From Mucilaginibacter agri (GTDB lineage: Bacteria; Bacteroidota; Bacteroidia; Sphingobacteriales; Sphingobacteriaceae): a stretch of 64,000 nucleotides of DNA. Every line of letters starts with the position of its first letter. Within the stretch, counting starts at the first letter, position 1. Under the pieces are notes generated by a model. It saw nothing but the letters and a program-made list of their open reading frames with translations. It had not been told where the DNA came from and ran no database searches. Both the position numbers and the translations under genes were made by a program. Shown piece after piece: positions 2,029-29,937 of this stretch. The stretch covers positions 1-64,000 of the forward strand of contig NZ_WWEO01000040.1 of NCBI RefSeq assembly GCF_009928685.1, written 5' to 3'.

Positions 2029-2108
2029 TACATTCGCTTCAATTTTGTTCGTGATGGGATAGCGTCTGCGCTATGCCACAAGCACGTTTACGTATTAACC
2101 ATAAATCC

Positions 2109-5100
2109 ATGTTTGATAAGATCATTGCGTTCTCGATCAGCAATAAGCTGGTCGTAGGGGCATTTATAATATTATTAGTAGCGGCCGGTATTTTTTCGCT
2201 TACACGCCTGCCAATTGATGCACAGCCTGACATTACCAATAACCAGGTTCAAATTATTACCCAGGCACCTACTTTGGGCGCTCAGGAAGTGGAGCAATAT
2301 ATTACCGCGCCGATAGAACTGGCGATTGCCAACGTGCCTAAAGTAATTGAAAAACGGTCAATTTCCCGTTCCGGACTGTCGGTGATAACGGTAGTATTTG
2401 AGGACAATGCAGATATCTATTGGGCGAGGCAGCAGATCAGCGAAGGTTTAAAGGAAGCTGAAAGTCAGATTCCCAAAGACACCGGCGAACCTATGTTGGC
2501 ACCTATCACGACCGGCCTCGGGGAGATCTACCAGTATGTCATACATACAAAACCCGGCTATGAAAACAAATATTCCGCTACAGACCTGCGTACCATGCAG
2601 GATTGGATCGTCCGCAGACAACTGGCCGGAACCCCTGGAATTGCCGAAATCAGCGGTTGGGGCGGCTATGTGAAGCAATACGAGATCGCTATTGACAACG
2701 AAAGGCTGAACAGCCTTAATATTACGATCAGCGATATTTATACTGCACTTGAAAAGAATAACCAAAACACAGGTGGATCGTACATTGAACAGCGAAGTAA
2801 CGCCTATTTTATCAGGGGGCTGGGTCAGGTTAAAACACTGGATGATATTGAACATATCGTGGTTAAGAACCGTGAAGATGCACCTGTGGTTATCGGTGAT
2901 ATTGCCAAGGTGCAATATGGCAGTGCTAACCGCTATGGCGCAGTTACCCGTAACGGACAAGGCGAAGTCGTTGCCGGTGTCGCCCTGATGCTAAAAGGTG
3001 AGAATTTCAGTGATGTTATCGAGCGCGTTAAGGAACGCATGGCCCAGGTACAAAAGTCATTGCCCGAGGGTGTGGTCATTGAGCCGTTCATTGACCGTAC
3101 GGAACTTGTTGGCAGGGCTATGGGTACGGTAGAACGGAACCTTATAGAAGGCGGCCTTATCGTCGTTTTTGTATTGGTCCTGCTGTTGGGTAACTGGCGT
3201 GCAGGTTTAGTAGTTGCTTCCGTTATTCCCCTGGCCATGCTGTTCGCCGTAACGCTGATGTATCTCTTTGGGGTATCCGGAAATTTGATGAGCCTGGGTG
3301 CAATTGACTTTGGACTGATCGTGGATGGGGCGGTTATTATTGTCGAAGCCATCGTTCACCGGATCACAGAAAGCAACCGCTTCGCAGGCAAAGAAACACT
3401 TGATCAATCTGAAATGGATGGCGAAGTTTACGAAGCAGCATCCAAGATCAGGGACAGCGCCGCTTTTGGCGAGATCATCATCCTTATCGTTTATCTGCCG
3501 CTTTTCGCACTGGTAGGTATCGAAGGAAAGATGTTCCGGCCAATGGCAGAAACGGTAGCTTTCGCCATCCTGGGTGCTTTTATCCTTTCGCTGACCTATG
3601 TGCCTATGGCAAGTGCCTTATTTTTAAGTAAGAAAACCCACCATAAGCGGAATATTTCTGACCGGCTGGTTGATGCCATGCACCGCATTTATACGCCGGC
3701 GTTAAACGCCGTGCTGAAGGCTAAAAAGTTTACCGTTTTTTTGTCTGTCGTTTTATTAGCCATCGCCCTGTGGGCTTTTGCTAAAATGGGCGGTGAGTTC
3801 ATCCCGACTTTAGAAGAAGGTGATCTGACGGTTGAAATTGCCATGATGCAAGGCACCTCACTATCGCAGGTAGTGCAGACCTTTGGAAAAGCAGAGAAGC
3901 TCTTAAAGCAGAAGTTCCCGGAGATCAAGCAGGCAGTAACCCGTATAGGAAGCGCGGAAGTGCCTACAGACCCGATGCCGTTCGAGCGTGGTGATATGAT
4001 GCTATCTATGAAACCGAAAGATGAATGGACTTCTGCCGGTGATCGCGCTGAAATAATGGAGAAGATCGAAGAAACACTAAAAGATATTCCCGGCATTAAT
4101 GTAGAAGTTACCCAACCTATGCAGATGCGATTCAATGAGCTGATGACAGGTATACGGCAGGATGTTGCCATTAAAATTTTTGGCGATGATCTGGACGTAT
4201 TGGCTTCCCAGGCGTATCAAACTGCAAAACTGATCAGCGGCGTTAAGGGGGTAAGTGAACCAATGGTAGAAAAGGTAAGCGGCTTGCCCCAGGTAGCGGT
4301 TGTTTATGACCGCCATAAGATCGCCCAATATGGTTTGAACATTGAAGATGTCAACACGGCGTTAAGTACCGCTTTTGCCGGTCGGGTGGCTGGTGCGGTG
4401 TTCGAGGGTGAGAAACGTTTTGAGATCGTTTTGCGCCTAAGCCGTGAACTGCGTTCCGATATAGTGAACATCGAAAACCTTTATATCCCGCTTCCAAGCG
4501 GCAGCAAGGTTCCGTTAAGCCAGGTGGCATCGATCAGAACCGAGGATGCACCCTCACAGATCAGCCGTGAGGATGGTAAACGCCGGATCTACGTTGGCTT
4601 TAACGTCCGCGGCCGTGATGTGGAAAGTACGGTTAAGGAGATACAGGAGCTCTTAAATCAAAAATTAAAAATGCCTGCCGGTTATTACACGACCTATGGC
4701 GGACAGTTCCAAAATTTGCAGGAAGCCAAAGGCCGTTTAGCTATAGCTGTGCCGGTAGCACTGCTGCTGATCCTCGTGTTGCTGTATTTTACCTTCCGTT
4801 CCGTTAGAGAGACCCTCCTGATCTTTTCTGCCGTACCGCTATCAGCAATTGGTGGTGTTGCTGCCTTGTACTTACGAGGAATGCCTTTTAGTATCAGCGC
4901 AGGCGTCGGTTTTATCGCCCTTTTTGGTGTTGCCGTTTTGAACGGGATCGTTCTGATCGGTTATTTCAACCAGCTTCAAGCTGAAGGCATTACCGATATC
5001 ATCGAGCGTGTAAAGAAAGGAACGCAGGTCAGGTTAAGGCCCGTGTTGATGACGGCCTCTGTAGCTTCGTTAGGTTTCCTGCCGATGGCTATATCGTCTA

Positions 5101-6503
5101 CCGCTGGTGCCGAAGTGCAAAGGCCCTTGGCAACGGTTGTGATCGGCGGGCTAATATCAGCGACCTTGCTTACCTTACTGGTTCTTCCGGTGCTTTATAT
5201 TCTTTTTACCAAAAATCATCCGCCAAAAACAGACAAGACAATGCCATTATCACCCAAGATCGGAGCTATCTTATTGTTTCTTACAGGCAGCTTAATTGCT
5301 TCGTCGGTCAACGCGCAGAGTGATAAACCGCTTACCTTATCAGAGAGCATTGAGACCGCAATCCGAAATAATCCGCAATTGCGCAGAGCAACGCTGGAGA
5401 TCGGTCAGAACCGAACTTTACAAGGTACGGCATTCGACCCCGCCAAAACCGACATCACCCTTACACAAGACCCTACATCCGGTGGGAATATCGATAATAG
5501 TTTGGGGATCACCCAAAGCTTTGCTTTTCCGACCGTTTACAGCGCTCAGGCAAAAGTACTCAAAGCACAGACCGCATTGAGCGAACGCTCAAAAGCTATT
5601 ACCGAAAACGAAGTCGTCAAACAGGTCACAGCAGCCTATTACGAGGTTCAATATGCGCAGAATAAGTTACGGCAGCTTACCAGCCAGGATAGCTTATATA
5701 AACGCTTTTCAGAGCGGGCGGCTTTGCGCTATAAAACAGGTGAAACCTCCTACCTTGAACAGCTTTCGGCTACGAACGCTTACAAAGAGATCAGCGTTTC
5801 CAGGCGACAGGCGGAAGCGGATGTACTGATCGGCAGGCAGGAATTACAGCAGTTATTGAGCATTAACTATTTGCCTGCAATAACTGATGGGCCTTTAGAA
5901 AAGCTTTCTTTTATTGCTGCCGATAGTATTGTGACCAGCAATCACCCACAAGTAGCTTATTATGAACAACGAAATGCTTTAGCTGATGCACAACTGAAAG
6001 CGGAAAAAAGCCGTTATTTCCCTGACCTGACCATTGGTTATCGCCAACAACTTTTAGTCGGCGCGTTTAATCCTGCCAATATCAGCCGCAACTATTTTCC
6101 CGGCACCAGGGTTGGTGGTTTTGAAGTCGGTGTTTCGGTGCCATTATTTTTCGGTGCTCAAAAGAGCAGGGTTAAAGCCGCCCAGGTGGGACAGCAGATC
6201 GCTCAGGCTGAACAGCAGAACGCCAGCCTTTTACTCAACAAGCAATATAATCAGGCACTGCAGCAACTCGCTAAATATGAGGCGGCAGTCCGCTATTACG
6301 ACGAAGGTGGTTTAAAGCAGGCAGCCGAGCAAATACGGATCGCCCAGTTTGCTTATAGCAAGGGTGAGATCGGCTATGTCGAATTTATTCAGAATATGAC
6401 ACAGGCCATGAACATCCGCCTGTCCTATCTTTCAGCACTTCGTGATTACAACCAGGCGGTTATTGAACTTACTTACCTCACTACAACATCGAAATCAAAA
6501 TGA
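2109..6503 (+). CDS. czcA: CzcA-type RND metal pump fused to TolC-like outer-membrane factor
   Basis: The first ~1,040 residues are a complete heavy-metal RND transporter. In transmembrane helix 4 the segment GAIDFGLIVDGAVIIVEA places Asp400, Asp406 and Glu413 with the spacing of the three acidic residues essential in Cupriavidus CzcA (D402, D408, E415), which points to divalent Co/Zn/Cd rather than Cu/Ag. The C-terminal ~420 residues are a TolC-type outer-membrane efflux domain with coiled-coil character. A signal-peptide-like segment starts at internal Met1045 (codon at 5241) and ends near SSVNAQ. I chose the ATG at 2109 because MFDKIIAFSISN is the family's normal start; an in-frame ATG exists at 2073. 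The stop overlaps the adaptor start by 4 nt. Confidence 0.9.
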   Translation: MFDKIIAFSISNKLVVGAFIILLVAAGIFSLTRLPIDAQPDITNNQVQIITQAPTLGAQEVEQYITAPIELAIANVPKVIEKRSISRSGLSVITVVFEDNADIYWARQQISEGLKEAESQIPKDTGEPMLAPITTGLGEIYQYVIHTKPGYENKYSATDLRTMQDWIVRRQLAGTPGIAEISGWGGYVKQYEIAIDNERLNSLNITISDIYTALEKNNQNTGGSYIEQRSNAYFIRGLGQVKTLDDIEHIVVKNREDAPVVIGDIAKVQYGSANRYGAVTRNGQGEVVAGVALMLKGENFSDVIERVKERMAQVQKSLPEGVVIEPFIDRTELVGRAMGTVERNLIEGGLIVVFVLVLLLGNWRAGLVVASVIPLAMLFAVTLMYLFGVSGNLMSLGAIDFGLIVDGAVIIVEAIVHRITESNRFAGKETLDQSEMDGEVYEAASKIRDSAAFGEIIILIVYLPLFALVGIEGKMFRPMAETVAFAILGAFILSLTYVPMASALFLSKKTHHKRNISDRLVDAMHRIYTPALNAVLKAKKFTVFLSVVLLAIALWAFAKMGGEFIPTLEEGDLTVEIAMMQGTSLSQVVQTFGKAEKLLKQKFPEIKQAVTRIGSAEVPTDPMPFERGDMMLSMKPKDEWTSAGDRAEIMEKIEETLKDIPGINVEVTQPMQMRFNELMTGIRQDVAIKIFGDDLDVLASQAYQTAKLISGVKGVSEPMVEKVSGLPQVAVVYDRHKIAQYGLNIEDVNTALSTAFAGRVAGAVFEGEKRFEIVLRLSRELRSDIVNIENLYIPLPSGSKVPLSQVASIRTEDAPSQISREDGKRRIYVGFNVRGRDVESTVKEIQELLNQKLKMPAGYYTTYGGQFQNLQEAKGRLAIAVPVALLLILVLLYFTFRSVRETLLIFSAVPLSAIGGVAALYLRGMPFSISAGVGFIALFGVAVLNGIVLIGYFNQLQAEGITDIIERVKKGTQVRLRPVLMTASVASLGFLPMAISSTAGAEVQRPLATVVIGGLISATLLTLLVLPVLYILFTKNHPPKTDKTMPLSPKIGAILLFLTGSLIASSVNAQSDKPLTLSESIETAIRNNPQLRRATLEIGQNRTLQGTAFDPAKTDITLTQDPTSGGNIDNSLGITQSFAFPTVYSAQAKVLKAQTALSERSKAITENEVVKQVTAAYYEVQYAQNKLRQLTSQDSLYKRFSERAALRYKTGETSYLEQLSATNAYKEISVSRRQAEADVLIGRQELQQLLSINYLPAITDGPLEKLSFIAADSIVTSNHPQVAYYEQRNALADAQLKAEKSRYFPDLTIGYRQQLLVGAFNPANISRNYFPGTRVGGFEVGVSVPLFFGAQKSRVKAAQVGQQIAQAEQQNASLLLNKQYNQALQQLAKYEAAVRYYDEGGLKQAAEQIRIAQFAYSKGEIGYVEFIQNMTQAMNIRLSYLSALRDYNQAVIELTYLTTTSKSK

Positions 6504-11102: not shown

Positions 11103-11207
11103 TCAACCAATATTCAATAATAGTAAAATTGTGGCAAACGCTGAAACTTAAACGGTATTCTGTAAAATTTCCGCATAATCCTGTAACGCAAATTTTCGGT
11201 GGCCCCG

Positions 11208-11215
11208 TAATTTTG
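11208..11215 (+). promoter_or_regulatory. -7 promoter element of copA
   Basis: TAATTTTG exactly matches the Bacteroidota -7 consensus TAnnTTTG and ends 18 nt before the copA ATG. No clear -33 TTTG stands at the usual spacing. Confidence 0.5.
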
Positions 11216-11233: not shown

Positions 11234-13468
11234 ATGGCAGCGCAATCGATCACCACAATTACTTTTCCCGTTACCGGCATGACCTGTGCAGGCTGCGCAT
11301 CAAGCGTTGAATCAATGCTCGGCGCACAAAACGGTGTTGAGCAAGCGGCTGTGAACTTTGCAACGCAAACCGTAAAGGTCGAATTTCACCCTGAAATCGT
11401 TGCACCAGAAGTGTTAAAACGTTCATTACAGTCGGTAGGTTACGACCTGCTCATAGATACAGCTAACGGTAAAGAACAGCAGGAACAAATCCGGGAAACT
11501 CACTACCGTGCATTAAAGAGAAATATCCTATGGGCTGGTGCCCTTACCTTACCCGTAGTGATCATCGGTATGTTCTATATGGACATGCCTTATGCCAATT
11601 ACATCATGTTATTGCTGACCGCGCCCGTGCTTTTTGTTGCAGGACGTAACTTTTTTATCGGGGCCTGGAAACAGGCAAAGCATGGACGCGCCAATATGGA
11701 TACGCTGGTAGCTATGAGTACGGGCATTGCTTTCCTTTTCAGCGTCTTCAATACCGTTTACCCGGATTTCTGGCACAGGCAGGCCTTGCACCCGCATGTA
11801 TATTACGAGGCGGCCTCGGTTGTCATTGTCTTTATCATGCTGGGAAAATTGCTCGAAGAACGGGCAAAATCCAACACGTCTTCCGCTATCAAAAAGCTAA
11901 TCGGACTCCAGCCAAAGACTGTTTTACTGATCACTCCGGCAGGTGAAAAGGTTATGCCGGTAGAAGAAGTCAGGGTTGGTGACTTGTTGCTGGTACGCCC
12001 TGGTGAAAAGATCCCCGTCGATGGTACGGTACAGGAGGGTCATTCCTATGTCGATGAAAGCATGATCAGTGGCGAACCTGTCGCTGTAGCAAAGCAAAGC
12101 GGCGACCCGGTTTTCGCGGGCACGATCAATCAAAAAGGCAGTTTTCAGTTCCGTGCTGAAAAAGTCGGCAGTGAAACGCTCCTCGGACAGATCATTAACC
12201 TTGTACAGGAGGCGCAGGGCTCTAAAGCGCCGGTTCAAAAACTGGTCGATAAAATTGCAGGTATATTCGTGCCGGTCGTAATGCTGATCGCGCTGATAAC
12301 ATTAGGTGCCTGGCTGCTATTCGGCGGTCAGCAAGCCTTAACGCAAGGGCTTTTGGCAATGGTGACGGTGCTGGTGATCGCCTGTCCTTGTGCGCTTGGC
12401 CTGGCTACGCCCACCGCTGTAATGGTCGGTATTGGCAAGGGCGCTGAAAATGGCATCCTGATCAAAGACGCGGAAGCACTTGAAATCGGTTATCAGGTGA
12501 ATGCAGTCGTGCTGGATAAGACAGGGACGATCACGGAAGGCAAACCAGTAGTAACAGACCTGATCTGGGCGAATCAGGCGGCTGGTAAAGAAAATCCCTT
12601 AGCTGCAATACTGTTATCACTCGAACAGCAATCGGAACATCCACTTGCGACAGCAGTTGTAGCCTACTTAAAGGAGCAAAACACGGGAACTGTAGCGTCG
12701 AACTATTTTCACAGTCTCACCGGTCAGGGAATTGAAGGCATGTTCGACGGACAGCCGTTCTATGCCGGTAACCTGAAACTCGTAGATTCCTGTAAAACCA
12801 ACTTGCCTGATGAACTTCGTGTTGCGGCAGAAGCACTATCTGGTTGGGGTAAAACGGTCATCTATTTCGCTTCACATCTTTCTGTACTGGCGATTGTTGC
12901 CCTGCAAGACCGGGTGAAAATTACTTCTGCCCAAGCGATTGCCGAATTACAAGGCAGTGGTATCACGGTCTATATGCTCACCGGTGACCACGCGGTTACT
13001 GCTGCACATATCGGTAAAGAGGCCGGTATCACTGAAATTATTGCAGGTGCTTTACCGGCCGACAAAGCGGAGTTTGTGAAGACCTTGCAAAGCCAGGGCA
13101 AAATAGTCGCGATGGTAGGTGATGGCATCAATGACAGCCAGGCGCTGGCACAGGCTAACCTTTCTATAGCAATGGGCCATGGTTCGGACATCGCCATGGA
13201 TGTAGCTAAGATCACGCTCGTCTCTTCCGATCTCTTACAGATACCCAAAGCACTTAAACTGTCCCGGCTCACTGTTCGTACAATTCGGCAAAATCTGTTC
13301 TGGGCATTTATCTATAACCTCATCGGCATTCCGCTGGCTGCCGGCATATTGTATCCGTTCAACGGCTTCCTGCTTAATCCCATGATCGCGGGTGCAGCTA
13401 TGGCCCTTAGTTCTGTATCGGTGGTCAGCAACAGCCTTCGGCTTAAATATTCAAAAATTAACATATAG
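11234..13468 (+). CDS. copA: Cu(I)-exporting P1B-1 ATPase CopA
   Basis: 744 residues. One N-terminal HMA domain carries GMTCAGC (Cys18, Cys21). The membrane copper-site motif CPC is at 384-386 ([11 protein letters not shown]), DKTGT has its aspartate at 428, and GDGIND lies in the hinge. The C-terminal segment has the Met-Ser-rich [13 protein letters not shown] typical of the P1B-1 Cu(I) class. It would pump Cu(I) from cytoplasm to periplasm, where the downstream multicopper oxidases can act on it. An HMA chaperone gene starts 10 nt after its stop. Confidence 0.95.
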
Positions 13469-13478: not shown

Positions 13479-13694
13479 ATGGAAACTCTAAAATTCAAGA
13501 CCACCATCAAATGTGGTGGCTGCATAGCAACGGTAACCCCGGTACTTAATAATTTGGACGGCGTACAAAAATGGGAGGTCGATACGGCTAACCCTGATAA
13601 GGTACTGACTGTAGATACAAATAAAGGTTTGAATCCTAATGAAGTGATTAGCGCATTGAAGGCCAAAGGCTTTCAGGCAGAAGTCATCAAATAA
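13479..13694 (+). CDS. Small HMA-domain metallochaperone (CopZ-like)
   Basis: A 71-residue single heavy-metal-associated domain with the metal site CGGC (Cys12, Cys15) in the first loop and a beta-alpha-beta pattern. The ATG at 13479 is chosen because the open frame upstream of it overlaps the end of copA in another frame. Directly following copA, it is likely to carry Cu(I) to CopA. The motif lacks the usual Met before the first Cys (KCGGC rather than MxCxxC), a minor variation. Confidence 0.82.
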   Translation: METLKFKTTIKCGGCIATVTPVLNNLDGVQKWEVDTANPDKVLTVDTNKGLNPNEVISALKAKGFQAEVIK

Positions 13695-13799: not shown

Positions 13800-14273
13800 A
13801 TGAGAAAATTCGGTGCCTTCGGCTTGGCTGCGTTTTACCTGTTGCTGACAACGGGTATGTTCGTATGCCTGGTTCACTGCGGTGCCGAATTTTTATTGGA
13901 AAAGTCGGGCCACGAATTAACGGCGCTTGCGCTTGATGACCATATGGGCGATGGCCACGATGAAGAATCTCTTGCCGGACATGATAGCGACCATCATGAG
14001 GACAAAGAACATGGACACAAAAAATCTTGTGGTGAAGGTAAAGATTGCAGTTGCTGTAACCAGCACGGCAATTATGTGATCAAAGAAAACTCTTCCGCTT
14101 CGCTGGAATTTCAACTGAGCGCATTACAGGTCGCCGTGATTTTTTTACCTTATGATTCAGCAGCGCCTGTTCGGGGCATTTATGAGGCTAAAGTATCCTG
14201 GTTAAACGCCACGGGGCCGCCGCGGTCGGCTGTACAGCCTTTATTTCTTAAATACCGTTCTCTTCTGATCTGA
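13800..14273 (+). CDS. His/Cys-rich envelope protein (HYC_CC_PP-like)
   Basis: 157 residues. An N-terminal hydrophobic segment (LAAFYLLLTTGMFVCLVHC) acts as signal or anchor. A long His/Asp/Glu-rich stretch follows (about 45-80, including DHHEDKEHGHKK), then a CSCC cluster, and the end is TGPPRSAVQPLFLKYRSLLI. Genes at 21372 and 29150 share this layout: anchor, His/Cys-rich middle, a Pro-Pro and an aliphatic end. It heads the unit leading into the HMA-AraC regulator and the first multicopper oxidase. Periplasmic copper binding or sensing is likely but inferred. Confidence 0.6.
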   Translation: MRKFGAFGLAAFYLLLTTGMFVCLVHCGAEFLLEKSGHELTALALDDHMGDGHDEESLAGHDSDHHEDKEHGHKKSCGEGKDCSCCNQHGNYVIKENSSASLEFQLSALQVAVIFLPYDSAAPVRGIYEAKVSWLNATGPPRSAVQPLFLKYRSLLI

Positions 14274-14342: not shown

Positions 14343-14906
14343 ATGACATTATATATTAAAAATATGGTTTGCGACCGCTGCATTATGGTCGTTAAACAAC
14401 AACTGGAAAATTTAGGTTTCCGCGTCACTGCAATTGCTCTAGGCAGCGCGGATGTACAGCCTGAGCCGGATGCCGTTCAATTAAGTGCTGTTTCCTCCGC
14501 TCTGAAGCTGCTTGGCTTCGAACTGATTGACAATGAAAAAGACCGCGTTGTGCAGCGCATCAAAGACCTGATCATTGAAAAGGTCCATCACAGCGACCTT
14601 GCCGACAATCGCCTTAGTTTTTCAGATTACCTGTCCGATCAGGTTCATAAGGATTATACCTACCTCAGCCGGATGTTCTCGGAATCCGAGGATACCACCA
14701 TAGAAAAATTCATTATTCAGCAAAAGATCGAAAAAGTGAAAGAACTGCTGGAGTACGGTGAACTCAACATGAATGAGATCGCCTGGAAAATGGGCTACAG
14801 CAGCAGCGCCCATTTGTCCACACAGTTCAAAACCATAACCGGGTTAACGCCGAGCCAGTATAAATCCTCCGATCAGCTGCCCAGAAAATCATTAGATAAG
14901 GTATAA
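14343..14906 (+). CDS. HMA-like domain fused to AraC-type regulator
   Basis: 187 residues. The first ~70 look like a heavy-metal-associated fold with a CxxC site (MVCDRC, Cys10 and Cys13). The C-terminal ~100 form an AraC-type helix-turn-helix pair (MNEIAWKMGYSSSAHLSTQF, then KTITGLTPSQYK). There is no membrane segment, so it should read cytoplasmic metal directly and bind DNA. It sits 10 nt before the first multicopper oxidase and downstream of copA, making it the best candidate copper regulator of this block, since no CueR, CsoR or CusRS gene is visible. Confidence 0.78.
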   Translation: MTLYIKNMVCDRCIMVVKQQLENLGFRVTAIALGSADVQPEPDAVQLSAVSSALKLLGFELIDNEKDRVVQRIKDLIIEKVHHSDLADNRLSFSDYLSDQVHKDYTYLSRMFSESEDTTIEKFIIQQKIEKVKELLEYGELNMNEIAWKMGYSSSAHLSTQFKTITGLTPSQYKSSDQLPRKSLDKV

Positions 14907-14916: not shown

Positions 14917-17664
14917 ATGAAAAACCTGAAGACAGTACTCCTAATAAGTTATCTCTGCGTGACTTTGGTTGCCCATGCCCAACAACATGAAATGCCCGGT
15001 ATGAACATGAATTCATCGCAGAAAAATCAGCCTGAAAAATCAAAAATTTCGCAAACAAACCCGAAAACGAAAGCGAGTACGGCGCAAAAGCGATCGAGGA
15101 AAAGAACGGCGAACAGGAAAGGTGTGGGTAGCATGATTGGAATGAAAATGAACCATTCCGATAGTGGTATAATGCCCGGAAGAAAAATGCCGGAAAAGTC
15201 CGCTGCAAATAGCATGCAAAATATGGACATGTCTGAGCCAGCACATGGAATGAGTATGGGAACAGGCAGCATGCCGGGCATGAAGATGACCGCACAGCCG
15301 GCGAATCCAGGCGATACCATTAAAAGTACGTCATCCACACTAAATGATCACCTTATTCATGCAGGCAAACGGGTATATTATGATCTTAATATCGGCGATA
15401 CCATAGTTAACTACACCGGTAAGCGCGTCAAAGCCCTGGCTATTAACGGCCAGATACCAGGCCCTGTTTTAAGATTTACGGAAGGTGACACGGCTTATAT
15501 CCGTATCCATAACCACCGAAAAACTACAACATCTATCCACTGGCACGGCTTGCTCGTACCCAATAAATACGATGGCGTACCTTACATCAGTACCGTGCCC
15601 ATAGAACCAGGCACGACGTTTACGAACGTCATACCCATCCGTCAGACCGGTACCTACTGGTATCATACTCACACCGAGTTAGACGAGCAGGCTGGCCTAT
15701 ACGGCCCTATTGTGATACAGCCGCAGGTTCGCAAAGATAATTACCCGGAACAGGTCTTTATGTTGTCCGATTGGACCGATTACCGGCCAAAAGAGGTTTT
15801 AAGAATGCTTAAGCGGGGCAGCGACTGGTTCTCTATCCAGCGGGGCAGCGTACTGAGCTATGGCGGAGCTATAGAAAAGGGTTACCTGAGCGACAAATTG
15901 AAGCTGGACTGGATGCGTATGCCAGCGATGGACCTTGTGGATGTAAAATATGACCGTTTTCTGGCCAACGGGCAAGGCAATCAGGATTTTACACGGTTCA
16001 AGGCTGGGGAAACCGTGAAGATGCGCATCATTAATGGTTCAGCGTCCAGTTACTTCTGGCTTAATTATGCAGGCGGGTCAATGACCGTGATAGCTGCGGA
16101 TGGCTTAGCTGTAAAGCCAGTTCAGGTCGATAAAATTTTAATTGGAACAGCTGAGACTTATGACGTGCTCATTAAGATACCTGCCTCCGGTAAATATGAA
16201 TTCCGGGCCACGGCGCAGGATATTACCGGAAAAGTTTCGGCATGGTTTGGTAGCGGCAAAGAATTTAAAACCACGGACATTCCAAAAGTGCCCTATTACC
16301 GGTTTACCCATACTTTCAATCAAATGATGGGCATGATGAATATGCCCATGAACTCCGTTCCGAATTCCAAAGTAAAAAACGACGGTCTCGAGTTTTCAAA
16401 AAGTGATGGGATGATGAAGATGGGAAATATGAAGATGAATGGACAAGATCCCAGTCGTCAAAATATGCAGAAAATGAACATGCCCGGAATGAAGATGGAT
16501 CAAATGTCCGGAATGGCCTCCGATAGTTCAAAGAATGGAAAGCAAGATAAGGAAAAAACGCCGGGTATGGCCATGCAGCCGGGAATGGACGATATGAACA
16601 TGGGTGGGATGGCTATGAAAATGAAAGATGATGGGAAAGGAACGCCTATGGGGCCCGGCCAATCCATGCTGCTGGGTTTAGGCGGGAAAGGAAAAATTCT
16701 AAGCTATGATATGCTGGAGGCTAATTCTACTACAGCCATTGAAGGAAAACACACTGTTCGAACCTATCATTTATATCTTACTGGCAGCATGCTACGTTAC
16801 ACCTGGTTTATCAATAATAAACCGCTATCAGAAGCAGACAGGTTACTAATCAGGAAAGGAGAAATTGTCCGCTTTGTGTTTCATAATACGACGATGATGG
16901 AACACCCGATGCACCTGCACGGACATTTTTTTCGTGTACTGAATGCTAAAGGCGATTCCGCACCACTTAAACATACGGTGAGTATTGAACCGATGAAGGT
17001 ACAAACGATAGAGTATCTGGCCGACGAAGCACACGACTGGTTTTTCCATTGCCACACACTTTATCACATGATGTCAGGTATGGCAAGGGTGGTACGTTAT
17101 GAAGATTCGCCAAGTAACCCTGATGTAGCGAAATATCAGCCGAACAACCCGGTAATTAATGATGACCGGCAGTTTTACACCTGGGCGCAGCTGTCCTTTC
17201 ATTCTCAGACCAACACCGGAAGCATCTTTGTCTCCAATACCCGTTATGAGTTCAATGCAAACTACCGTGCGAGCTACGATGGAAGATACGAATTTGAACC
17301 GCGCGCGGAACGTTACCTGGATAACCCGCAATACCTTGCGGCTTATATCGGTGGAAGCTTTGAAAAAAACACGAAGGGTGGCCGGTTCACACAGTATAGT
17401 GAAAATAGTGCAGTTGTAGGCTTAAGATACTTGTTGCCGCTATTTATACAAACGGATGCACGCGTCAGCTCAAAAGGAAAGTTCCGATTTGCTTTGAGCA
17501 GGGAAGACATCCCGCTTTCCAGCAGGCTTTATCTTGGTGCGTCTTATAATACTGACAAGGAATTCCAAATGGATACGCGGTATGTGCTCACCAAATATTT
17601 TGCGTTATCACTCAGTTACGATAACCAGTACGGCTTTGGAGGGGGCCTTACTGTCATTTACTAA
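14917..17664 (+). CDS. Multicopper oxidase with Met-rich insert and C-terminal barrel-like domain
   Basis: 915 residues with a signal peptide ending near VAHAQ. The cupredoxin copper ligands are complete: HWHG (His208, His210), WYHTH (His250, His252), HPMHLHG (His663, His666, His668) and HCHTLYHMMSGM (His711, Cys712, His713, His717, axial Met722). Met/His-rich stretches near the N-terminus and at about 465-570 (repeated MxGM patterns) resemble CopA/CueO copper-loading loops. After about residue 750 comes ~160 residues of alternating aromatic/polar strands ending GGGLTVIY, like an outer-membrane beta-barrel. Likely periplasmic Cu(I) oxidase, possibly anchored to the outer membrane by the tail (inference). 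The gene at 23485 has the same architecture. Confidence 0.88.
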   Translation: MKNLKTVLLISYLCVTLVAHAQQHEMPGMNMNSSQKNQPEKSKISQTNPKTKASTAQKRSRKRTANRKGVGSMIGMKMNHSDSGIMPGRKMPEKSAANSMQNMDMSEPAHGMSMGTGSMPGMKMTAQPANPGDTIKSTSSTLNDHLIHAGKRVYYDLNIGDTIVNYTGKRVKALAINGQIPGPVLRFTEGDTAYIRIHNHRKTTTSIHWHGLLVPNKYDGVPYISTVPIEPGTTFTNVIPIRQTGTYWYHTHTELDEQAGLYGPIVIQPQVRKDNYPEQVFMLSDWTDYRPKEVLRMLKRGSDWFSIQRGSVLSYGGAIEKGYLSDKLKLDWMRMPAMDLVDVKYDRFLANGQGNQDFTRFKAGETVKMRIINGSASSYFWLNYAGGSMTVIAADGLAVKPVQVDKILIGTAETYDVLIKIPASGKYEFRATAQDITGKVSAWFGSGKEFKTTDIPKVPYYRFTHTFNQMMGMMNMPMNSVPNSKVKNDGLEFSKSDGMMKMGNMKMNGQDPSRQNMQKMNMPGMKMDQMSGMASDSSKNGKQDKEKTPGMAMQPGMDDMNMGGMAMKMKDDGKGTPMGPGQSMLLGLGGKGKILSYDMLEANSTTAIEGKHTVRTYHLYLTGSMLRYTWFINNKPLSEADRLLIRKGEIVRFVFHNTTMMEHPMHLHGHFFRVLNAKGDSAPLKHTVSIEPMKVQTIEYLADEAHDWFFHCHTLYHMMSGMARVVRYEDSPSNPDVAKYQPNNPVINDDRQFYTWAQLSFHSQTNTGSIFVSNTRYEFNANYRASYDGRYEFEPRAERYLDNPQYLAAYIGGSFEKNTKGGRFTQYSENSAVVGLRYLLPLFIQTDARVSSKGKFRFALSREDIPLSSRLYLGASYNTDKEFQMDTRYVLTKYFALSLSYDNQYGFGGGLTVIY

Positions 17665-21299: not shown

Positions 21300-21357
21300 T
21301 GTTCGTAGCCTATAAAATATTGACGGAATTATATAAATGTTATTGCTAATGGTTTTT

Positions 21358-21365
21358 TAGTTTTG
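21358..21365 (+). promoter_or_regulatory. -7 promoter element giving a probable leaderless mRNA
   Basis: TAGTTTTG matches TAnnTTTG exactly and ends 6 nt before the ATG at 21372. The TTG that could extend the frame upstream (21363) lies inside this box, which supports the ATG as start. No good -33 box is visible. Confidence 0.5.
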
Positions 21366-21371: not shown

Positions 21372-21785
21372 ATGAAAAGTAAAGCGCTTTTGTTACTCTT
21401 TATATTTATGCTGAATACCGTTGCCGGGTTTAGCTGCGCTTTACATATGTCCCACGATAACCATCACGAAGCTGTCGAAAGTCATGAACACCATCATGCT
21501 GCCGTTAAACACACGCATCGTCAACTGCTTCCCGGACAAACTACGATAGGCACTGATGAACCTTGCTGCCAAAGCGCGGTAAATAACTTTATTTCATTGG
21601 CCAAGCTTGTCCCGTCGACCGACCACCTGGTCTTAAAAGCGCCACTGTTATATACCAGCGACAACCTCATATTTTCGTTGGTGCCTGATCCTGGCGTTAT
21701 TATTATACCCCGTATCGTTATTGACGAGCGACAGCGTCCCCCGACAAGAAATATTTATATCATTCATCGCAGCCTGTTGATCTGA
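21372..21785 (+). CDS. Small His-rich envelope protein (HYC_CC_PP-like)
   Basis: About 137 residues. A signal-like N-terminus (ALLLLFIFMLNTVAGFSCAL) is followed by a His-rich stretch (HDNHHEAVESHEHHHAAVKH), a CC pair (EPCCQS) and an ending with a Pro-Pro (QRPPTRNIYI) and HRSLLI. It resembles the gene at 13800. It heads the unit DUF3347, DUF3347, haem-binding protein, multicopper oxidase, CopB. Likely periplasmic, with metal binding or sensing inferred from residue content and repeated genomic placement. Confidence 0.6.
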   Translation: MKSKALLLLFIFMLNTVAGFSCALHMSHDNHHEAVESHEHHHAAVKHTHRQLLPGQTTIGTDEPCCQSAVNNFISLAKLVPSTDHLVLKAPLLYTSDNLIFSLVPDPGVIIIPRIVIDERQRPPTRNIYIIHRSLLI

Positions 21786-21857
21786 TTACGATTAAGTTTA
21801 AACCGTTACATGGCGTAGCCATGCCCGAATTTTATACTTTATTTTAATTCTCAGATC

Positions 21858-22358
21858 ATGAAAAAGACATTTTTACTGGTTGCCTTCATTGCAACTGCGT
21901 TTACACAACAACTTTTTGCCCAGGATGCGAAAACATCATCCCTTTCTTCTTTATTGTCCTCTTATTACGGCGTCAAAGACGCGCTTGTCACCTCAAACAG
22001 CCCGGACGCAGCCACTCATGCTACCGAGTTCCTGAAAGCGATCAATGGGGTCGATATGAAGACGCTGGACAAGCCGGAGATGGACACTTTTATGCTTTTA
22101 CAGGAAAAGCTTGCCTTTGATGCGCGGCATATTTCGGAGAGCAAGGATATCGCCCATCAGCGGGAACACTTTGCCAATTTCTCGTTGAACTTCTTCAAAC
22201 TGGCAAAAGCAGTAAAATTATCGGATAAGCCGGTTTATTATGCTTATTGCCCGATGAAGAAAAGCTATTGGCTTTCTGCTGAAGCTGCGATCAAGAACCC
22301 ATACTACGGAAACCAAATGCTCACCTGTGGCAAGGTTACCGAAACCCTTAATAAATAA
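21858..22358 (+). CDS. Periplasmic DUF3347 protein
   Basis: 166 residues with signal peptide (cleavage near LFAQ). The C-terminal part has YCPMKKSYWLS and NPYYGNQMLTCGKV, the DUF3347 signature also found as a tail on some CusB-type adaptors. The Cys, Met and His residues suggest copper binding. A helical region (about 30-110) precedes it. The second DUF3347 gene follows after a hairpin. The two may act as copper-binding partners of the export machinery; the exact role is unknown. Confidence 0.82.
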   Translation: MKKTFLLVAFIATAFTQQLFAQDAKTSSLSSLLSSYYGVKDALVTSNSPDAATHATEFLKAINGVDMKTLDKPEMDTFMLLQEKLAFDARHISESKDIAHQREHFANFSLNFFKLAKAVKLSDKPVYYAYCPMKKSYWLSAEAAIKNPYYGNQMLTCGKVTETLNK

Positions 22359-22376
22359 GTTTATCCATAAAGCTTA

Positions 22377-22403
22377 ACCGGCAAATGTTGATCATTTGCC
22401 GGT
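22377..22403 (+). terminator. 11-bp hairpin between the DUF3347 genes
   Basis: ACCGGCAAATG (22377-22387) pairs perfectly with CATTTGCCGGT (22393-22403) across a 5-nt loop. There is no clear T tract, so partial attenuation between the paralogues is more likely than full termination. Confidence 0.55.
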
Positions 22404-22430
22404 CATTGCTCATTACAAAATTTAGACATC

Positions 22431-23012
22431 ATGAAAAATTTAATCATAGTTAGCTTAGCCATCACCGCAGTTTCATTCACAGCTTGCAATAACAATAAAT
22501 CCACATCAACCTCCACGGCTACTGATTCAACCAAAACGGCAAATACGCCAGGACAATCCGCTACTTCTTCAAAGCCTGCTACAGCGGTAAATGGCCTCGT
22601 TGGCAGTTATTTGGAATTGAAAAATGCGCTGGCGCAAGACAACAGTAAGGACGCTGCAACGGCTGGTAAAGCCCTCGCTGATGGTTTTGGAAAGTTTGAT
22701 AAGTCCGCACTTTCAGCCACCCAGAAAAAATCTTTCGAGGACATTGCCGACGACGCGCATGAAATGGCCGAGCACATTGGCGAAAGCGCGGGAAAACTGC
22801 CGCATCAGCGTGAACACTTTGATATGCTGAGCAAAGATATGTATGATCTGGTCAAGCTTTTCGGTGCGGGACGGTCATTATTCGTCGATCATTGCCCCAT
22901 GTATAATGATAAAAAAGGGGCGATCTGGCTAAGTGAAAGTAAAGAGATCAAAAACCCCTATATGGGTTCAGGCATGTCAACCTGCGGAAATGTGAAGGAA
23001 GAATTAAAATAA
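22431..23012 (+). CDS. DUF3347 lipoprotein
   Basis: 193 residues with a lipobox (VSFTAC, Cys19) and a Ser/Thr-rich linker. The C-terminal DUF3347 part carries DHCPMYNDKKGAIWLS and NPYMGSGMSTCGNVK. The helical middle includes HQREHFDMLS, matching HQREHFANFS in the preceding paralogue. It is the anchored counterpart of the soluble protein upstream, the same soluble/anchored pairing seen for the DUF305 genes. Its stop directly abuts the next start. Confidence 0.82.
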   Translation: MKNLIIVSLAITAVSFTACNNNKSTSTSTATDSTKTANTPGQSATSSKPATAVNGLVGSYLELKNALAQDNSKDAATAGKALADGFGKFDKSALSATQKKSFEDIADDAHEMAEHIGESAGKLPHQREHFDMLSKDMYDLVKLFGAGRSLFVDHCPMYNDKKGAIWLSESKEIKNPYMGSGMSTCGNVKEELK

Positions 23013-23474
23013 ATGACCATGAACAGGACGGTTAAGATCATCGGATCAGGGGCGCTGCTGCTTGCTGCTATGCAATTTTTCCCGCGCGACCATAACCAAG
23101 GAAAAGCTCCTGCCGGTAAAACGATGGCAGAGGTTATCCAGGTTCCATCAAACGCTCAGGTCATATTGAAACGGTCATGTTATGATTGTCATAGCGATCA
23201 TACCAACTATCCCTGGTACGCGCAACTGCAGCCAGTCCGATATATACTGGATGGTCATATCAGGCGCGGCAAAGATGAACTGAATTTTGACGAATTCGGT
23301 GATTACGCTGCCAGGCGGCAGCGAAGCCGCATAAGGGCAATCGGCGAAAGCCTGGAGGAAGGCGCTATGCCCTTGGGTTCCTATACAATGATACACCGTG
23401 ATGCAATACTTACAAAAGAAGATAAGGCAACGTTGCTGAATTGGGCTAAAGAGACCAGCAGCACACTGCCGTAA
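23013..23474 (+). CDS. Haem-binding domain protein (c-type CxxCH)
   Basis: 153 residues with an N-terminal membrane anchor and one CxxCH haem site (CYDCH, residues 56-60) in the context SDHTNYPWYAQLQPV, typical of the small Haem_bd family in Bacteroidota. Starts at 23013 or 23019 are both possible; the first directly abuts the upstream stop. It lies 10 nt before a multicopper oxidase. It might pass electrons between the oxidase and the respiratory chain, but such proteins also occur alone, so this is inference. Confidence 0.8.
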   Translation: MTMNRTVKIIGSGALLLAAMQFFPRDHNQGKAPAGKTMAEVIQVPSNAQVILKRSCYDCHSDHTNYPWYAQLQPVRYILDGHIRRGKDELNFDEFGDYAARRQRSRIRAIGESLEEGAMPLGSYTMIHRDAILTKEDKATLLNWAKETSSTLP

Positions 23475-23484
23475 AAGTTAAAAG

Positions 23485-26238
23485 ATGAAAAATATAACAC
23501 TTATGGTGCTGATACTTTTATTCGGGCAGATAGCGAAGGCTCAAACCGATATGCAGGGTATGCCGGGAATGCAGAAACAGCAGCAGGTCACTTATACCTG
23601 CCCTATGCATCCGGAAATCCATGACGCAAAACCTGGTAATTGCCCCAAATGCGGCATGAAGCTGGTTAAAGAAAAACCAAAGGCAGTTGCCCCAAAGACA
23701 GCCGCTAAAAACATGACACTAAAGGGAAAAAACCTGAAGGCGGATAACAAGCCGATGGAAAAAGCGCCTGCGGCAAGTGCTGTCAGTTATACATGCCCGA
23801 TGCATCCTGATATTCATTCGGCCCAACCAGGCAACTGCCCCAAGTGCGGGATGAAACTGGTCAAAGAGCAACCAAAAGCTATGAATATGTCTGGACTGAA
23901 CATGCCCGCAACGGACAGTGCGAAAACAGGTGGAAAAATGGAGGGTATGAAGATGGATGGTATGAAAATGAGCAGCGGACCGGCCGATATTCAAGCTGCA
24001 AAAGACCATTTAGGGTCTATCAAAACCATTAGCGCTAAATATCCGCCCCGTACGGTTCGGTATGACCTTTTTATAGCCGACACTACCGTTACCTATGGTG
24101 GAAAACCAAAGCGTGCCATTGCCGTAAACGGCAGTATTCCCATGCCGACATTGACATTTACGGAAGGCGATACTGCGGAAATCTATGTTCACAACAAACT
24201 GAAAGAAGAAACCTCGCTGCACTGGCACGGACTGTTTCTACCCAACCGTTACGACGGAGTGCCTAACATGACCCAGATGCCGATCAAGCCGGGTGAAACG
24301 CATTTATATAAGTTTCCCATCAAACAACATGGCACCCATTGGTATCACAGTCATACCGGTTTACAGGAACAGATCGGCATGTACGGTGCATTTATCATGA
24401 ATAAACGCCAGGAATGGGACATTCCGACCATTCCGCTGGTATTAAGTGACTGGACGAATATGAATCCCAAGGAGGTTCAGCGGAGCCTTCATGCCGCTAC
24501 GGATTGGTTCGCCATCAAAAAGGGAACAACGCAAAGCTACCTCGAAGCGATAAGATCAGGCAACTTCAAAACGAAGGTTGCCAATGAATGGAAGCGTATG
24601 ACCGCCATGGATGTGAGCGATGTATACTATGATAATTTTCTCATCAATGGAAAAAATCAAAATGAACAACCACAATTCAAAGCCGGTGATAAAGTGAGAT
24701 TGCGCATCGCCAACGGTGGTGCTTCCTCTTATTTTTGGTTGAAGTATGCAGGTGGTAAAATGACCGTGGTTGCAACGGATGGCAATGACGTAGCGCCTGT
24801 TGAAGTCGACCGGCTGATCGTTGCAGTTTCCGAAACCTACGATGTGGTGGTGACCATACCGGAAAATAAAAGCTATGAATTCCTGGTCACCCCCGAAGAC
24901 CGTACGAAGTCCGCGTCACTTTGGCTGGGCAAAGGCGATAAAGTTTATGCCGGTAAAATGCCAAAGCTGAAATACTTTGCCGGTATGAAAATGATGAATG
25001 ATATGATGGACATGAATGGTAATATGGTACAGATGGATGGCATGACCATGCAAAACCAGATCATGGATATGAACACCGTCATGTACCCGGAGATTACCGG
25101 CGAGGAAAAACCAGCCGCTAAAAAAACAAAAGCTACCATGGCTGGAATGCAAATGGCAAATGACCAAAGCATGTCAGGCATGAATATGGCCGCTGAAAAC
25201 CCGGACATCGTAACATTGAATTATAACATGCTTCGCGACCCTGGAAAGACCAGCTTGCCTGCGGGGCCGTGGCGGGAGCTAAAGTTTGACCTGACAGGAA
25301 ATATGAACCGTTATGTCTGGACACTGGATAATAAGACGGTATCCGAGTCTGATAAGATCCTGATCAAAAAAGGCGAGAACCTGCGGATCATCCTCTACAA
25401 TAATAGCATGATGCGGCACCCGATGCACCTGCACGGACATGACTTCAGGGTGCTCAACGGGCAGGGCGAGAATGCTCCTATGAAGAATGTCCTTGACATT
25501 ATGCCGATGGAGAGGGACACGATAGAATTTGCGGCCAATGAGCCTGGTGGTGACTGGTTCTTCCACTGCCATATCCTTTACCACATGATGAGCGGCATGG
25601 GACGCGTATTCAGCTATGAGAACTCCCCGCCGAATCCTGATGTGCCTGATCCGAAGCTGGCGCAGCGCAAGCTCTTTTGGGACGACCAGATGCCACACCT
25701 AATGGGAAAAGTCGGATTGGAAAGCAACGGAACAGACGGACAGGTAATGCTGGGCAGTACACGCTGGAAAGCGATGACCATGTGGCATCTTGGCACGGAT
25801 GCCATGATGGGTTACGAAAGTGAAACGACGGTGGGCCGTTATATCGGACGGAACCAATGGCTTTTTCCATATGTTGGTTTTGATTATCACTACAAGAAGT
25901 TTAACCCAGATGAAAAAAATATTTTTGGCAGCGATTATAAGAACCTGTTCGGTCAGGTGAGCAACAAGGAAAACCGCCACACGGTAGTCGCGGGTGTTGC
26001 CTATACCTTGCCCATGTTATTTGTGGCGGACATGCGGATTGACGGGAACGGCAAACTGCGTTTCCAGTTAGGACGTGAAGACATTCCGGTTGCGCAACGG
26101 CTGCGTATGTCATTAATGATCAACACGGATAAAGAGTATTCAGCAGGATTTCGGTATATTCTAACTAAATACTTTTCATTATCCACGCACTATGACAGTG
26201 ATATGGGTCTCGGCGGGGGTTTGACGTTAACTTATTAA
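23485..26238 (+). CDS. Multicopper oxidase with two N-terminal heavy-metal-binding domains and barrel-like tail
   Basis: 917 residues. After the signal peptide (ending near AKAQ), two heavy-metal-binding domains at about 37-63 and 102-128 each carry TCPMHP and CPKCGM. The cupredoxin ligands are HWHG (His246, His248), WYHSH, HPMHLHGHDF and HCHILYHMMSGM (Cys695, His700, Met705). Met-rich loops lie at about 140-165 and 490-575. The last ~160 residues have alternating beta-strand pattern ending GGGLTLTY, as in the paralogue at 14917. It would oxidise periplasmic Cu(I); the two extra metal domains may load or buffer copper. Confidence 0.88.
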   Translation: MKNITLMVLILLFGQIAKAQTDMQGMPGMQKQQQVTYTCPMHPEIHDAKPGNCPKCGMKLVKEKPKAVAPKTAAKNMTLKGKNLKADNKPMEKAPAASAVSYTCPMHPDIHSAQPGNCPKCGMKLVKEQPKAMNMSGLNMPATDSAKTGGKMEGMKMDGMKMSSGPADIQAAKDHLGSIKTISAKYPPRTVRYDLFIADTTVTYGGKPKRAIAVNGSIPMPTLTFTEGDTAEIYVHNKLKEETSLHWHGLFLPNRYDGVPNMTQMPIKPGETHLYKFPIKQHGTHWYHSHTGLQEQIGMYGAFIMNKRQEWDIPTIPLVLSDWTNMNPKEVQRSLHAATDWFAIKKGTTQSYLEAIRSGNFKTKVANEWKRMTAMDVSDVYYDNFLINGKNQNEQPQFKAGDKVRLRIANGGASSYFWLKYAGGKMTVVATDGNDVAPVEVDRLIVAVSETYDVVVTIPENKSYEFLVTPEDRTKSASLWLGKGDKVYAGKMPKLKYFAGMKMMNDMMDMNGNMVQMDGMTMQNQIMDMNTVMYPEITGEEKPAAKKTKATMAGMQMANDQSMSGMNMAAENPDIVTLNYNMLRDPGKTSLPAGPWRELKFDLTGNMNRYVWTLDNKTVSESDKILIKKGENLRIILYNNSMMRHPMHLHGHDFRVLNGQGENAPMKNVLDIMPMERDTIEFAANEPGGDWFFHCHILYHMMSGMGRVFSYENSPPNPDVPDPKLAQRKLFWDDQMPHLMGKVGLESNGTDGQVMLGSTRWKAMTMWHLGTDAMMGYESETTVGRYIGRNQWLFPYVGFDYHYKKFNPDEKNIFGSDYKNLFGQVSNKENRHTVVAGVAYTLPMLFVADMRIDGNGKLRFQLGREDIPVAQRLRMSLMINTDKEYSAGFRYILTKYFSLSTHYDSDMGLGGGLTLTY

Positions 26239-26250
26239 AACATTAGAGGA

Positions 26251-28350
26251 ATGGAAAATCAACACGATCATCACGCCATGACAGGGCACCAACAACCTGC
26301 CCGTACACAGGCAAATTATAACGCTGAAGCTGGATCAATGGATCATGGTAAAATGCTTAAAGGTCATGGTCCAAATATGGGAATGGCTGGTCATGATCAT
26401 CATGCGATGATGATCGCTGATTTTAGAAAGCGTTTTTATGTGGTACTGGTATTGACGGTTCCGGTGATGTTACTGTCTATGCAAATTCAGCAATGGCTGC
26501 ATTTGGATTTTCGGTTCGGCGGCTCAGGCTACCTGCTTTTTGGCTTGTCAAGCATCGTTTTCCTTTACGGCGGCTGGCCATTTTTGAGTGGGTGGTTTAA
26601 TGAATTAAAGGCTAAAAACCCCGGCATGATGACCCTGATCGGCTTTGCCATAACAGTAGCCTACATTTACAGCGCGGCAACGGTTTTCGGATTGAAAGGA
26701 ATGGACTTCTTTTGGGAACTTACCACGCTGATCCTGATCATGCTGCTCGGGCACTGGATCGAGATGCGGTCGGTAGCGGGAGCTTCCAGGGAATTGGAGC
26801 TTTTAGTGCAACTCATGCCGGCAGAGGCGCACTTAATTAAAGGCAAAGACACGACCGAGATTAAAACAGAAACCTTAAAGACAGGAGACCTGATCCTGAT
26901 CAAGCCAGGTGAAAAAATTCCCGCCGACGGGATTATCGAGGATGGCGAAAGCTATCTGAATGAATCCATGCTTACCGGTGAGGCTACACCCGTACAGAAA
27001 ACTAAAGGACAGGACGTGATTGCCGGGTCGGTCAATGGCAACGGCTCTTTAAAGGTTAAAGTCACGCATAGCGGCGCAGATTCATATCTGTCCAAAGTAA
27101 TAACCCTGGTCAAAAATGCACAGGACGCCAAATCAAACACCCAACTGCTGGCTGATAAGGCCGCCAAATGGCTAACCGTCATCGCCCTTATTGCGGGGCT
27201 TAGTACCTTTGCTTTTTGGCTTGCGGATGGCAAAGATCTGGCTTTTGCTATGGAAAGAATGGTAACAGTGATCGTGATCTGTTGTCCACATGCTCTGGGT
27301 CTCGCCGTGCCGCTTGTGGTAGCCAAGTCTACTTCGCTTTCTGCCCAGCACGGGTTGTTGATCAAAAACCGTACAGCATTTGAAAACTCCCGCAAGATCA
27401 GCACCATTGTTTTTGATAAAACAGGTACGCTGACCGTTGGAAAATTCGAGGTAGCCCGGGTGGTTGTTATAGATCATCAAAGTAATGACAAAAAGCAAAA
27501 TGAAAACGAACTGTTGCGAACCGTAGCAGCGCTGGAACAAAATTCAGAACACCCGATTGCCACCGGAATCCTCGCCGAAATAAAAAAACGTTCATTAAGC
27601 ATTCCCGAAGTAAAAGATTTTAAGGCGATCACCGGTCAGGGTATTGAGGCGTTGGTAGAAGGCAAGCAACTCAAAGTCGTCAGCCCCGGCTATTTAAAAG
27701 AACACGAATTTTCCGAACCTGAAGACTTTGTCGCTAACGGTAACGAAACAGTTGTCTTTGTCATCATCAATGAGATATTATATGGTTATATCGCATTATC
27801 GGATACCATTCGCCCGGAATCAGCTGACGCCATACAGACGCTGCATAACAATGGCATTAAATCATTGCTGTTAACAGGAGATAACCAAATGGTGGCGGAA
27901 AGCGTGAGCAACCAGTTAAAAATGGATGGTTTTTTTGCTGAAGTTCTGCCACATCAGAAGCTGGATAAAATCAAAGAATTGCAGCAAAAAGGTGAGTTTG
28001 TTGCCATGACGGGCGATGGCGTAAATGACGCCCCCGCGCTGGCGCAGGCAGATATTGGGATAGCCGTAGGCTCCGGCAGTGACATTGCAGCGGAAACTGC
28101 AGGTATTGTTTTGGTTAACAGTAATCCAAAGGATATTGTTAGCCTGATATTATTCGGAAAAGCGACTTATCGTAAAATGATTCAAAACCTGGCCTGGGCT
28201 ACGGGTTATAATGTGGTCGCATTGCCGCTGGCGGCAGGCGTGCTGTATAATCAGGGGATTGTTTTGAGCCCGGCAGTGGGAGCCGTATTAATGACGGTCA
28301 GCACGGTTGTTGTGGCTATTAATGCCAGCTTGTTAAAAGTAAAGACTTAG
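26251..28350 (+). CDS. copB: CopB-type copper P1B-3 ATPase
   Basis: 699 residues. The His/Met-rich N-terminus (HDHHAMTGHQQ, DHHAMMIADF) replaces an HMA domain. The membrane metal motif is CPH (345-347, CCPHALGLAVP), which defines the P1B-3 class associated with Cu(II)/Ag export, and DKTGT has its aspartate at 389. The ending AVLMTVSTVVVAINASLLK is typical of this class. A good ribosome-binding site (AGAGGA) precedes the ATG, 12 nt after the oxidase stop. Together with CopA upstream, the island has both main copper ATPase types. Confidence 0.92.
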   Translation: MENQHDHHAMTGHQQPARTQANYNAEAGSMDHGKMLKGHGPNMGMAGHDHHAMMIADFRKRFYVVLVLTVPVMLLSMQIQQWLHLDFRFGGSGYLLFGLSSIVFLYGGWPFLSGWFNELKAKNPGMMTLIGFAITVAYIYSAATVFGLKGMDFFWELTTLILIMLLGHWIEMRSVAGASRELELLVQLMPAEAHLIKGKDTTEIKTETLKTGDLILIKPGEKIPADGIIEDGESYLNESMLTGEATPVQKTKGQDVIAGSVNGNGSLKVKVTHSGADSYLSKVITLVKNAQDAKSNTQLLADKAAKWLTVIALIAGLSTFAFWLADGKDLAFAMERMVTVIVICCPHALGLAVPLVVAKSTSLSAQHGLLIKNRTAFENSRKISTIVFDKTGTLTVGKFEVARVVVIDHQSNDKKQNENELLRTVAALEQNSEHPIATGILAEIKKRSLSIPEVKDFKAITGQGIEALVEGKQLKVVSPGYLKEHEFSEPEDFVANGNETVVFVIINEILYGYIALSDTIRPESADAIQTLHNNGIKSLLLTGDNQMVAESVSNQLKMDGFFAEVLPHQKLDKIKELQQKGEFVAMTGDGVNDAPALAQADIGIAVGSGSDIAAETAGIVLVNSNPKDIVSLILFGKATYRKMIQNLAWATGYNVVALPLAAGVLYNQGIVLSPAVGAVLMTVSTVVVAINASLLKVKT

Positions 28351-28473
28351 TACAATACGATATAAATTTTTGTCCGAATAGTATAAAATAATAAAAGCGT
28401 ACTTCCTTACCTTGTCGCAGTAATAACGTGAAATTTATTGCACTATCTTTAAAAAATAAAAGTTTAACACATA

Positions 28474-29894: not shown

Positions 29895-29922
29895 CAACCC
29901 TCCGCTGTTTGGCGGAGGGTTG
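29895..29922 (+). terminator. 11-bp hairpin just before the Cus-type pump
   Basis: CAACCCTCCGC (29895-29905) pairs perfectly with GCGGAGGGTTG (29912-29922). Lying between the HMBD gene and cusA, it likely reduces read-through into the pump genes or shields the upstream mRNA. Confidence 0.65.
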
Positions 29923-29937
29923 ATTAAAGCAATTAAG

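Follow-up and report, generated by a model that had tools for sequence, protein, structure and literature searches.

A gene of Mucilaginibacter agri encodes an AraC-family one-component regulator type with an HMA sensor, and the protein is the Mucilaginibacter member of a widespread, apparently unnamed Bacteroidota HMA-AraC family. Judged from the sequence, with a probability of roughly three in four, it would be a cytosolic Cu(I) sensor and a transcription activator that acts at a predicted 21-bp operator, newly found here, to drive copA and copper-export genes. We infer that the metal is copper, that it is bound as Cu(I) and that control is positive. The gene lies in a 64-kb stretch of DNA, referred to as the window, whose relevant features are collected in Table 1.

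Table 1. Positions of the regulator gene, its domains, and the predicted sites and targets in the window
Feature	Position	Strand	Basis or remark
Predicted operator, copA cluster	11156..11186	+	TATTCTGTAA-n11-AATCCTGTAA, 21-bp direct repeat 5' of copA
-7 promoter element of copA cluster	11208..11215	+	TAATTTTG; TTTG 25 nt past operator
copA, Cu(I)-type P1B ATPase, predicted target	11234..13468	+	TIGR01511, 589.7 bits against cut-off of 397
Small HMA (CopZ-like) protein, predicted target	13479..13694	+	Pfam HMA, 34.6 against 24.8 bits
CopL-like His/Cys-rich exported protein, weak assignment	13800..14273	+	CopL_fam below cut-off
HMA-AraC regulator gene	14343..14906	+	Intact ORF, 187 aa; start MTLYIKNMVCDRCIMVV
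HMA-like ferredoxin-fold N-terminal sensor domain	14343..14534	+	Residues 1-64; AF2, Foldseek, profile matches
C10-D-R-C13 motif codons, predicted Cu(I) site	14370..14381	+	Cysteine conservation in family
Linker helix	14535..14591	+	Residues 65-83; AF2
AraC-type DNA-binding domain, two HTH motifs	14619..14867	+	Residues 93-175; Pfam, AF2, Foldseek
Multicopper oxidase (MCO), copper-resistance type	14917..17664	+	TIGR01480, 387.9 bits, below cut-off of 479; 10 bp 3' of regulator
Second predicted operator	21306..21336	+	TAGCCTATAA-n11-AATTATATAA; TAGTTTTG at 21358-21365
Predicted target cluster	21372..28350	+	CopL-like, two DUF3347-like, small CxxCH protein, MCO (23485-26238), CopB-type ATPase (26251-28350)

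Domain structure of the regulator

An earlier note on this DNA had proposed a CxxC-containing HMA-like domain and two helix-turn-helix motifs on one chain, and Pfam, profile comparisons, the AF2 model and Foldseek all bear this out. The C-terminal half matches HTH_18 (7.4e-17; 61.9 against a gathering cut-off of 33.6 bits) and HTH_AraC (2.1e-9; 37.7 against 26.6 bits) in Pfam, and is also found as AraC-type by NCBIfam and by a PDB sequence search. The two-HTH domain scores above the curated cut-off, which places the protein in the AraC/XylS family. Pfam gave no match to Trns_repr_metal (PF02583, the CsoR domain) in the protein, and no MerR-type family or CueR model is among the matches listed for it.

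What is the N-terminal domain? The Pfam HMA model (PF00403) scores 12.9 bits, below its cut-off of 24.8, and HMA matches are seen in 14 of 33 family members at E<=1, the best being 1.8e-4. Despite this sub-threshold score, the domain reading is considered right because a PDB profile search with the N-terminal domain puts Cu-ATPase HMA domains and CopZ at the top (E 7.7e-7), and because HMA domains are matched at 95.7% (E 9e-9) in a profile-profile comparison, with CxxC aligned to CxxC. The AF2 model, made with 33 relatives (mean pLDDT 88.8), consists of E2-6, H11-23, E27-32, E35-39, H44-56 and E60-62, the linker helix 65-83 and then the AraC helices; the N-terminal domain has the beta-alpha-beta-beta-alpha-beta fold. 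The CxxC is at the start of helix 1 of this HMA-type fold, and both fold and homology assign the domain to the HMA superfamily. With the model as Foldseek query, AraC DNA-binding domains rank first, and GolB, CsoZ, TTHA1718 and Atx1 are matched in alignments of about 65-70 columns. As judged by profiles and model, the N-terminal domain is a divergent but genuine HMA relative.

Copper genes in the window

The CopA of the window has the P1B-1 Cu(I) motifs, i.e. an N-terminal HMA domain, CPC, N-x6-YN-x4-P and MxxSS. The genes for CopA, the CopZ-like and CopL-like proteins, the regulator and the multicopper oxidase are co-directional with gaps of about 10-105 bp, and thus the regulator probably lies within its own target operon.

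Several other loci of the window are related to metals. Zn/Cd-type transport genes are present. A CusA-type RND pump at 29920-33101 appears as two overlapping open reading frames (29920-31212 and 31209-33101), which represents a frameshift, an assembly error or a true split. The 1476-aa open reading frame at 2073-6503 resembles a CzcA-type RND pump fused with a TolC-like outer membrane factor, and the very Cys-rich, exported-looking protein of 63 aa at 28880-29071 is possibly metallothionein-like. On the minus strand (43141-44126), an ArsR-type regulator and a MerT-like membrane protein whose C-terminal domain is of the HMA type lie side by side and form a second likely metal-responsive unit.

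The family and its CxxC/SxxC split

By profile search, 153 of 295 Bacteroidia genomes carry the family, as do 119 of 247 genomes from a sample of the whole phylum. Scanning GTDB genomes with a pattern gave 430 encoding stretches, and the best 80 of the 430 are nearly all from Bacteroidota. Bacteroidota plasmids carry relatives as well (NZ_CP051683.1:60893-61453 and 29 more records, from Mucilaginibacter, Hymenobacter, Spirosoma and others); these are annotated mostly as generic AraC or HTH regulators. The M. agri genome has one full-length paralogue with 49% identity (C15:220797; L002:1495-2058), and downstream of it lie a predicted operator of its own and the gene of an HMA-MauE membrane protein.

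Prominent among the family motifs is K6-N-M-V-C-x-R-C13, which is practically invariant in the scan set, a set partly chosen by a pattern that includes this stretch; C10 and C13 are found in 81 of 81 members. Such near-invariance in the CxxC family argues that the motif is not there by chance. In the 69 loci from a whole-length profile search, C13 is present in all 69 and C10 in 56, with Ser replacing C10 in the remaining 13. These 13 SxxC members form one clade (support 98 in a quick tree).

Does the neighbourhood follow the cysteine? CopA, a CopZ-like HMA protein, HMA-MauE or CopB is encoded within 5 kb in 18 of 27 profile-found CxxC loci (those with the same flank as the SxxC set) vs. none of the 13 SxxC loci, a strong contrast but not 13 independent tests, as the SxxC clade represents a single evolutionary event. 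A third of the profile-found CxxC loci have none of the tested copper gene kinds within this distance. Among scan-found CxxC loci, 62 of 79 have CopA, HMA, HMA-MauE or CopB within 5 kb. CopA is the commonest neighbour of the family, and HMA-MauE is found instead beside some relatives. The SxxC loci (L130, L136, L137, L141, L142, L145, L148-L151, L153, L156 and L158) are followed by PAS-domain kinases, CsbD-like stress and other genes, and the direct repeat of this clade is of the GAATnATGTAA type.

A predicted operator and promoter

Where might the regulator act? In many loci where the regulator gene comes first, the short gap between it and copA or HMA-MauE contains the direct repeat AATnnTRYAA-n11-AATnnTRYAA, with a 21-bp period; the repeat is also found 5' of copA in Mucilaginibacter. 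In diverse loci the operator sits 3' of the regulator, ahead of copA, and inspection of the region 5' of the regulator in such loci revealed no obvious common site besides the -7 element. When a 32-column EM motif trained on 50 gaps was applied to 50 held-out gaps, 25 of these scored 12 bits or more, vs. 0.1% of shuffles. At 80 distinct sites of CxxC loci, counted with 24-27 nt allowed, the distance from the repeat to the start of the TTTG in the Bacteroidota -7 element is 25 nt (21 sites) or 26 nt (59 sites); in a count with freer spacing, 21 of 22 sites had 25-26 nt. A TTG at the -33 position is nearly absent (2 of the 80 sites), which is the layout expected for an activator-dependent promoter.

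The composite pattern has 88 matches in the fetched loci vs. none for the reversed control. The next gene is most often that of CopA (50), followed by HMA-MauE (9), CopZ-like HMA (8) and CopL-like (7) genes. The strict form occurs in 82 of the 295 Bacteroidia genomes, the control pattern in two; the family is carried by 73 of these 82 genomes vs. 80 of the 213 that lack the strict site. Genome G273 is below threshold for the family in spite of its 13 strict sites. The composite site is absent from 17 of the 27 profile-found CxxC loci. In SxxC members the operator is related and shares this geometry, as would fit divergence inside one family, and because of this similarity the operator by itself is no proof of metal control.

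The earlier note had regarded the protein as a copper-linked one-chain regulator that might bind intergenic DNA at 11.0-11.2 kb and 13.7-14.3 kb. The linkage to copA, the natural control provided by the SxxC clade and the predicted operator 5' of copA support the copper link. Of the two intervals, the first holds a predicted operator, but pattern and motif scans of the window found none at 13.7-14.3 kb. The first operator pattern was too strict for the 64-kb window, and the relaxed pattern was written with the site at 21306 already known; this second operator has counterparts in one MAG labelled Pedobacter and in six Mucilaginibacter loci besides the present one. A match at 28356-28386 was rejected as a target, as TTTG is missing at the right distance. 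Matches at 11068, 47777, 51018 and 60571 are weaker, lack the composite promoter pattern and are attributed to chance.

In the whole 5.6-Mb genome there are five composite sites vs. no control matches, and three of the five precede copper/heavy-metal genes, including copA. The sites precede copA, the CopL-DUF3347-MCO-CopB cluster, the HMA-MauE gene of the paralogue, an alcohol dehydrogenase gene and a cyclase-like gene. The same 21-bp operator/promoter layout is seen after a different AraC gene, ahead of the alcohol dehydrogenase gene just named (L212, C15:421592-421652). Thus, the geometry may be general to AraC regulators here.

Proposed mechanism and alternatives

How would the regulator respond to copper? 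Cu(I), possibly also Ag(I), would be bound by C10 and C13 of the HMA-type domain and might be passed on to it by the CopZ-like HMA protein from the same gene cluster. The signal would travel from the HMA-type domain via helix 65-83 to the AraC domain. Two protomers may occupy the 21-bp direct repeat, with the downstream half abutting the -33 element position, and RNA polymerase would be recruited to -7 TAnnTTTG promoters, one ahead of copA and one ahead of the CopL-MCO-CopB cluster. As the regulator gene is inside the copA cluster, induction would raise the regulator too, i.e. a positive feedback.

Could the signal be something other than copper? The same regulator and operator might respond to another soft metal (Ag, Hg, Zn or Cd) or to thiol/redox stress. 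HMA CxxC domains bind several metals, some relatives adjoin HMA-MauE rather than CopA, and the Zn/Cd-type transport genes of the window also fit. However, CopA is not only the commonest neighbour but also the commonest gene after the operator, the window CopA has Cu(I)-type motifs, and copper HMA domains are the closest profile matches in the PDB; a different signal is therefore considered unlikely. A further proposal is that the HMA-like domain is no more than a relic of the fold or a module for dimerization, and that the regulator senses an unrelated signal or is governed by its abundance alone. This is very improbable, as both cysteines are invariant in all CxxC members phylum-wide and ties to copper genes are limited to these members, even though the SxxC sister clade retains the fold without the first Cys and adjoins PAS-kinase and CsbD-like stress genes.

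The direction of control might also be the opposite, with the apo-regulator repressing copA and the metal releasing it, as with CsoR and CopY. Repressors indeed make up three of the four known families of Cu(I) sensors, namely CsoR, CopY and ArsR-type (PMC7558416). Against this, the predicted operator lies entirely 5' of the -7 element, with its end close to -33, where the rarity of TTG is that of an activator-dependent layout. Among AraC proteins, those whose direct repeats lie close to -35 are mostly activators. Repression is thus quite doubtful, and activation by Cu(I) is the preferred reading.

Relation to known copper sensors

The absence of CueR and CsoR from the vicinity, pointed out previously, extends to the whole genome, where a PF02583 search found no CsoR and CueR is below cut-off, and almost to the whole class: of the 295 Bacteroidia genomes, 11 have CsoR and none has CueR above cut-off, and CopA is present in 221. 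The earlier note had taken the regulator as a likely substitute for CueR, CsoR or CusRS. The genome-wide survey covered CsoR, CueR and CusR/CopR. All 14 CusR/CopR-like response regulators of the M. agri genome are below cut-off (best 219 vs. 279 bits), and a CusR-like regulator or a periplasmic two-component copper system may be present elsewhere in the genome. As Bacteroidota are mostly without known cytosolic copper sensors, the family would fill a sensing gap.

Like CueR, the regulator would be a cytosolic one-component protein with two Cys and is predicted to activate copA, but CueR has a MerR fold, a C-terminal metal site and a long-spacer promoter, whereas the M. agri protein combines an HMA domain at its N-terminus with an AraC domain, and its predicted operator is an upstream direct repeat. 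CsoR controls copA in bacteria without CueR; however, it is a tetrameric repressor of another fold, and is missing here and in 284 of the 295 Bacteroidia. The C-terminal two-HTH domain is common to AraC and AraC/XylS proteins, and the AraC half-sites I1-I2 (araI1-I2) are, like the predicted operator, direct repeats with 21-bp spacing next to the promoter. The AraC sensor, in contrast, is a cupin-type arabinose-binding domain and not an HMA-type ferredoxin fold. CopZ, Atx1 and the N-terminal HMA domain of CopA have the same fold and CxxC loop, but they are chaperones or ATPase domains with no DNA-binding fusion, and carry GMTCxxC where the regulator consensus is NMVCDRC. The SxxC sister clade, with about 43-49% identity, the same architecture and similar operator geometry, differs in its Ser for the first Cys and in having stress-type instead of copper neighbours.

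A 2020 review lists four families of Cu(I)-sensing regulators for efflux, MerR, CsoR, CopY and ArsR; it remarks that DNA-binding domains are usually placed first (PMC7558416). For the Bacteroidota that it included, a 2023 survey gives only two-component and ECF-type copper systems, with no one-component sensor (PMC10141476). A literature search found no described HMA-AraC copper regulator; subscription papers were mostly outside its coverage, and thus an earlier description is possible. A paper on metal islands in Mucilaginibacter mentions neither AraC nor CopA.

Significance

With the four families of the review and only two-component and ECF-type systems in the survey (PMC7558416, PMC10141476), cytosolic copper sensing in Bacteroidota, including gut and soil genera, has so far been poorly explained. 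The balance is somewhat in favour of HMA-AraC regulators being one more structural class among cytosolic Cu(I) regulators, beside MerR, CsoR, CopY and ArsR, and the main Bacteroidota copper sensor, which uses an operator code of its own; in this view, a sub-clade has lost a metal-binding Cys and been re-used for general stress. The regulator is also a possible copper-biosensor part. Present in about half of Bacteroidia, the family offers a concrete candidate, with a defined predicted site and predicted targets, and with the Cys-to-Ser change as a control provided by nature.
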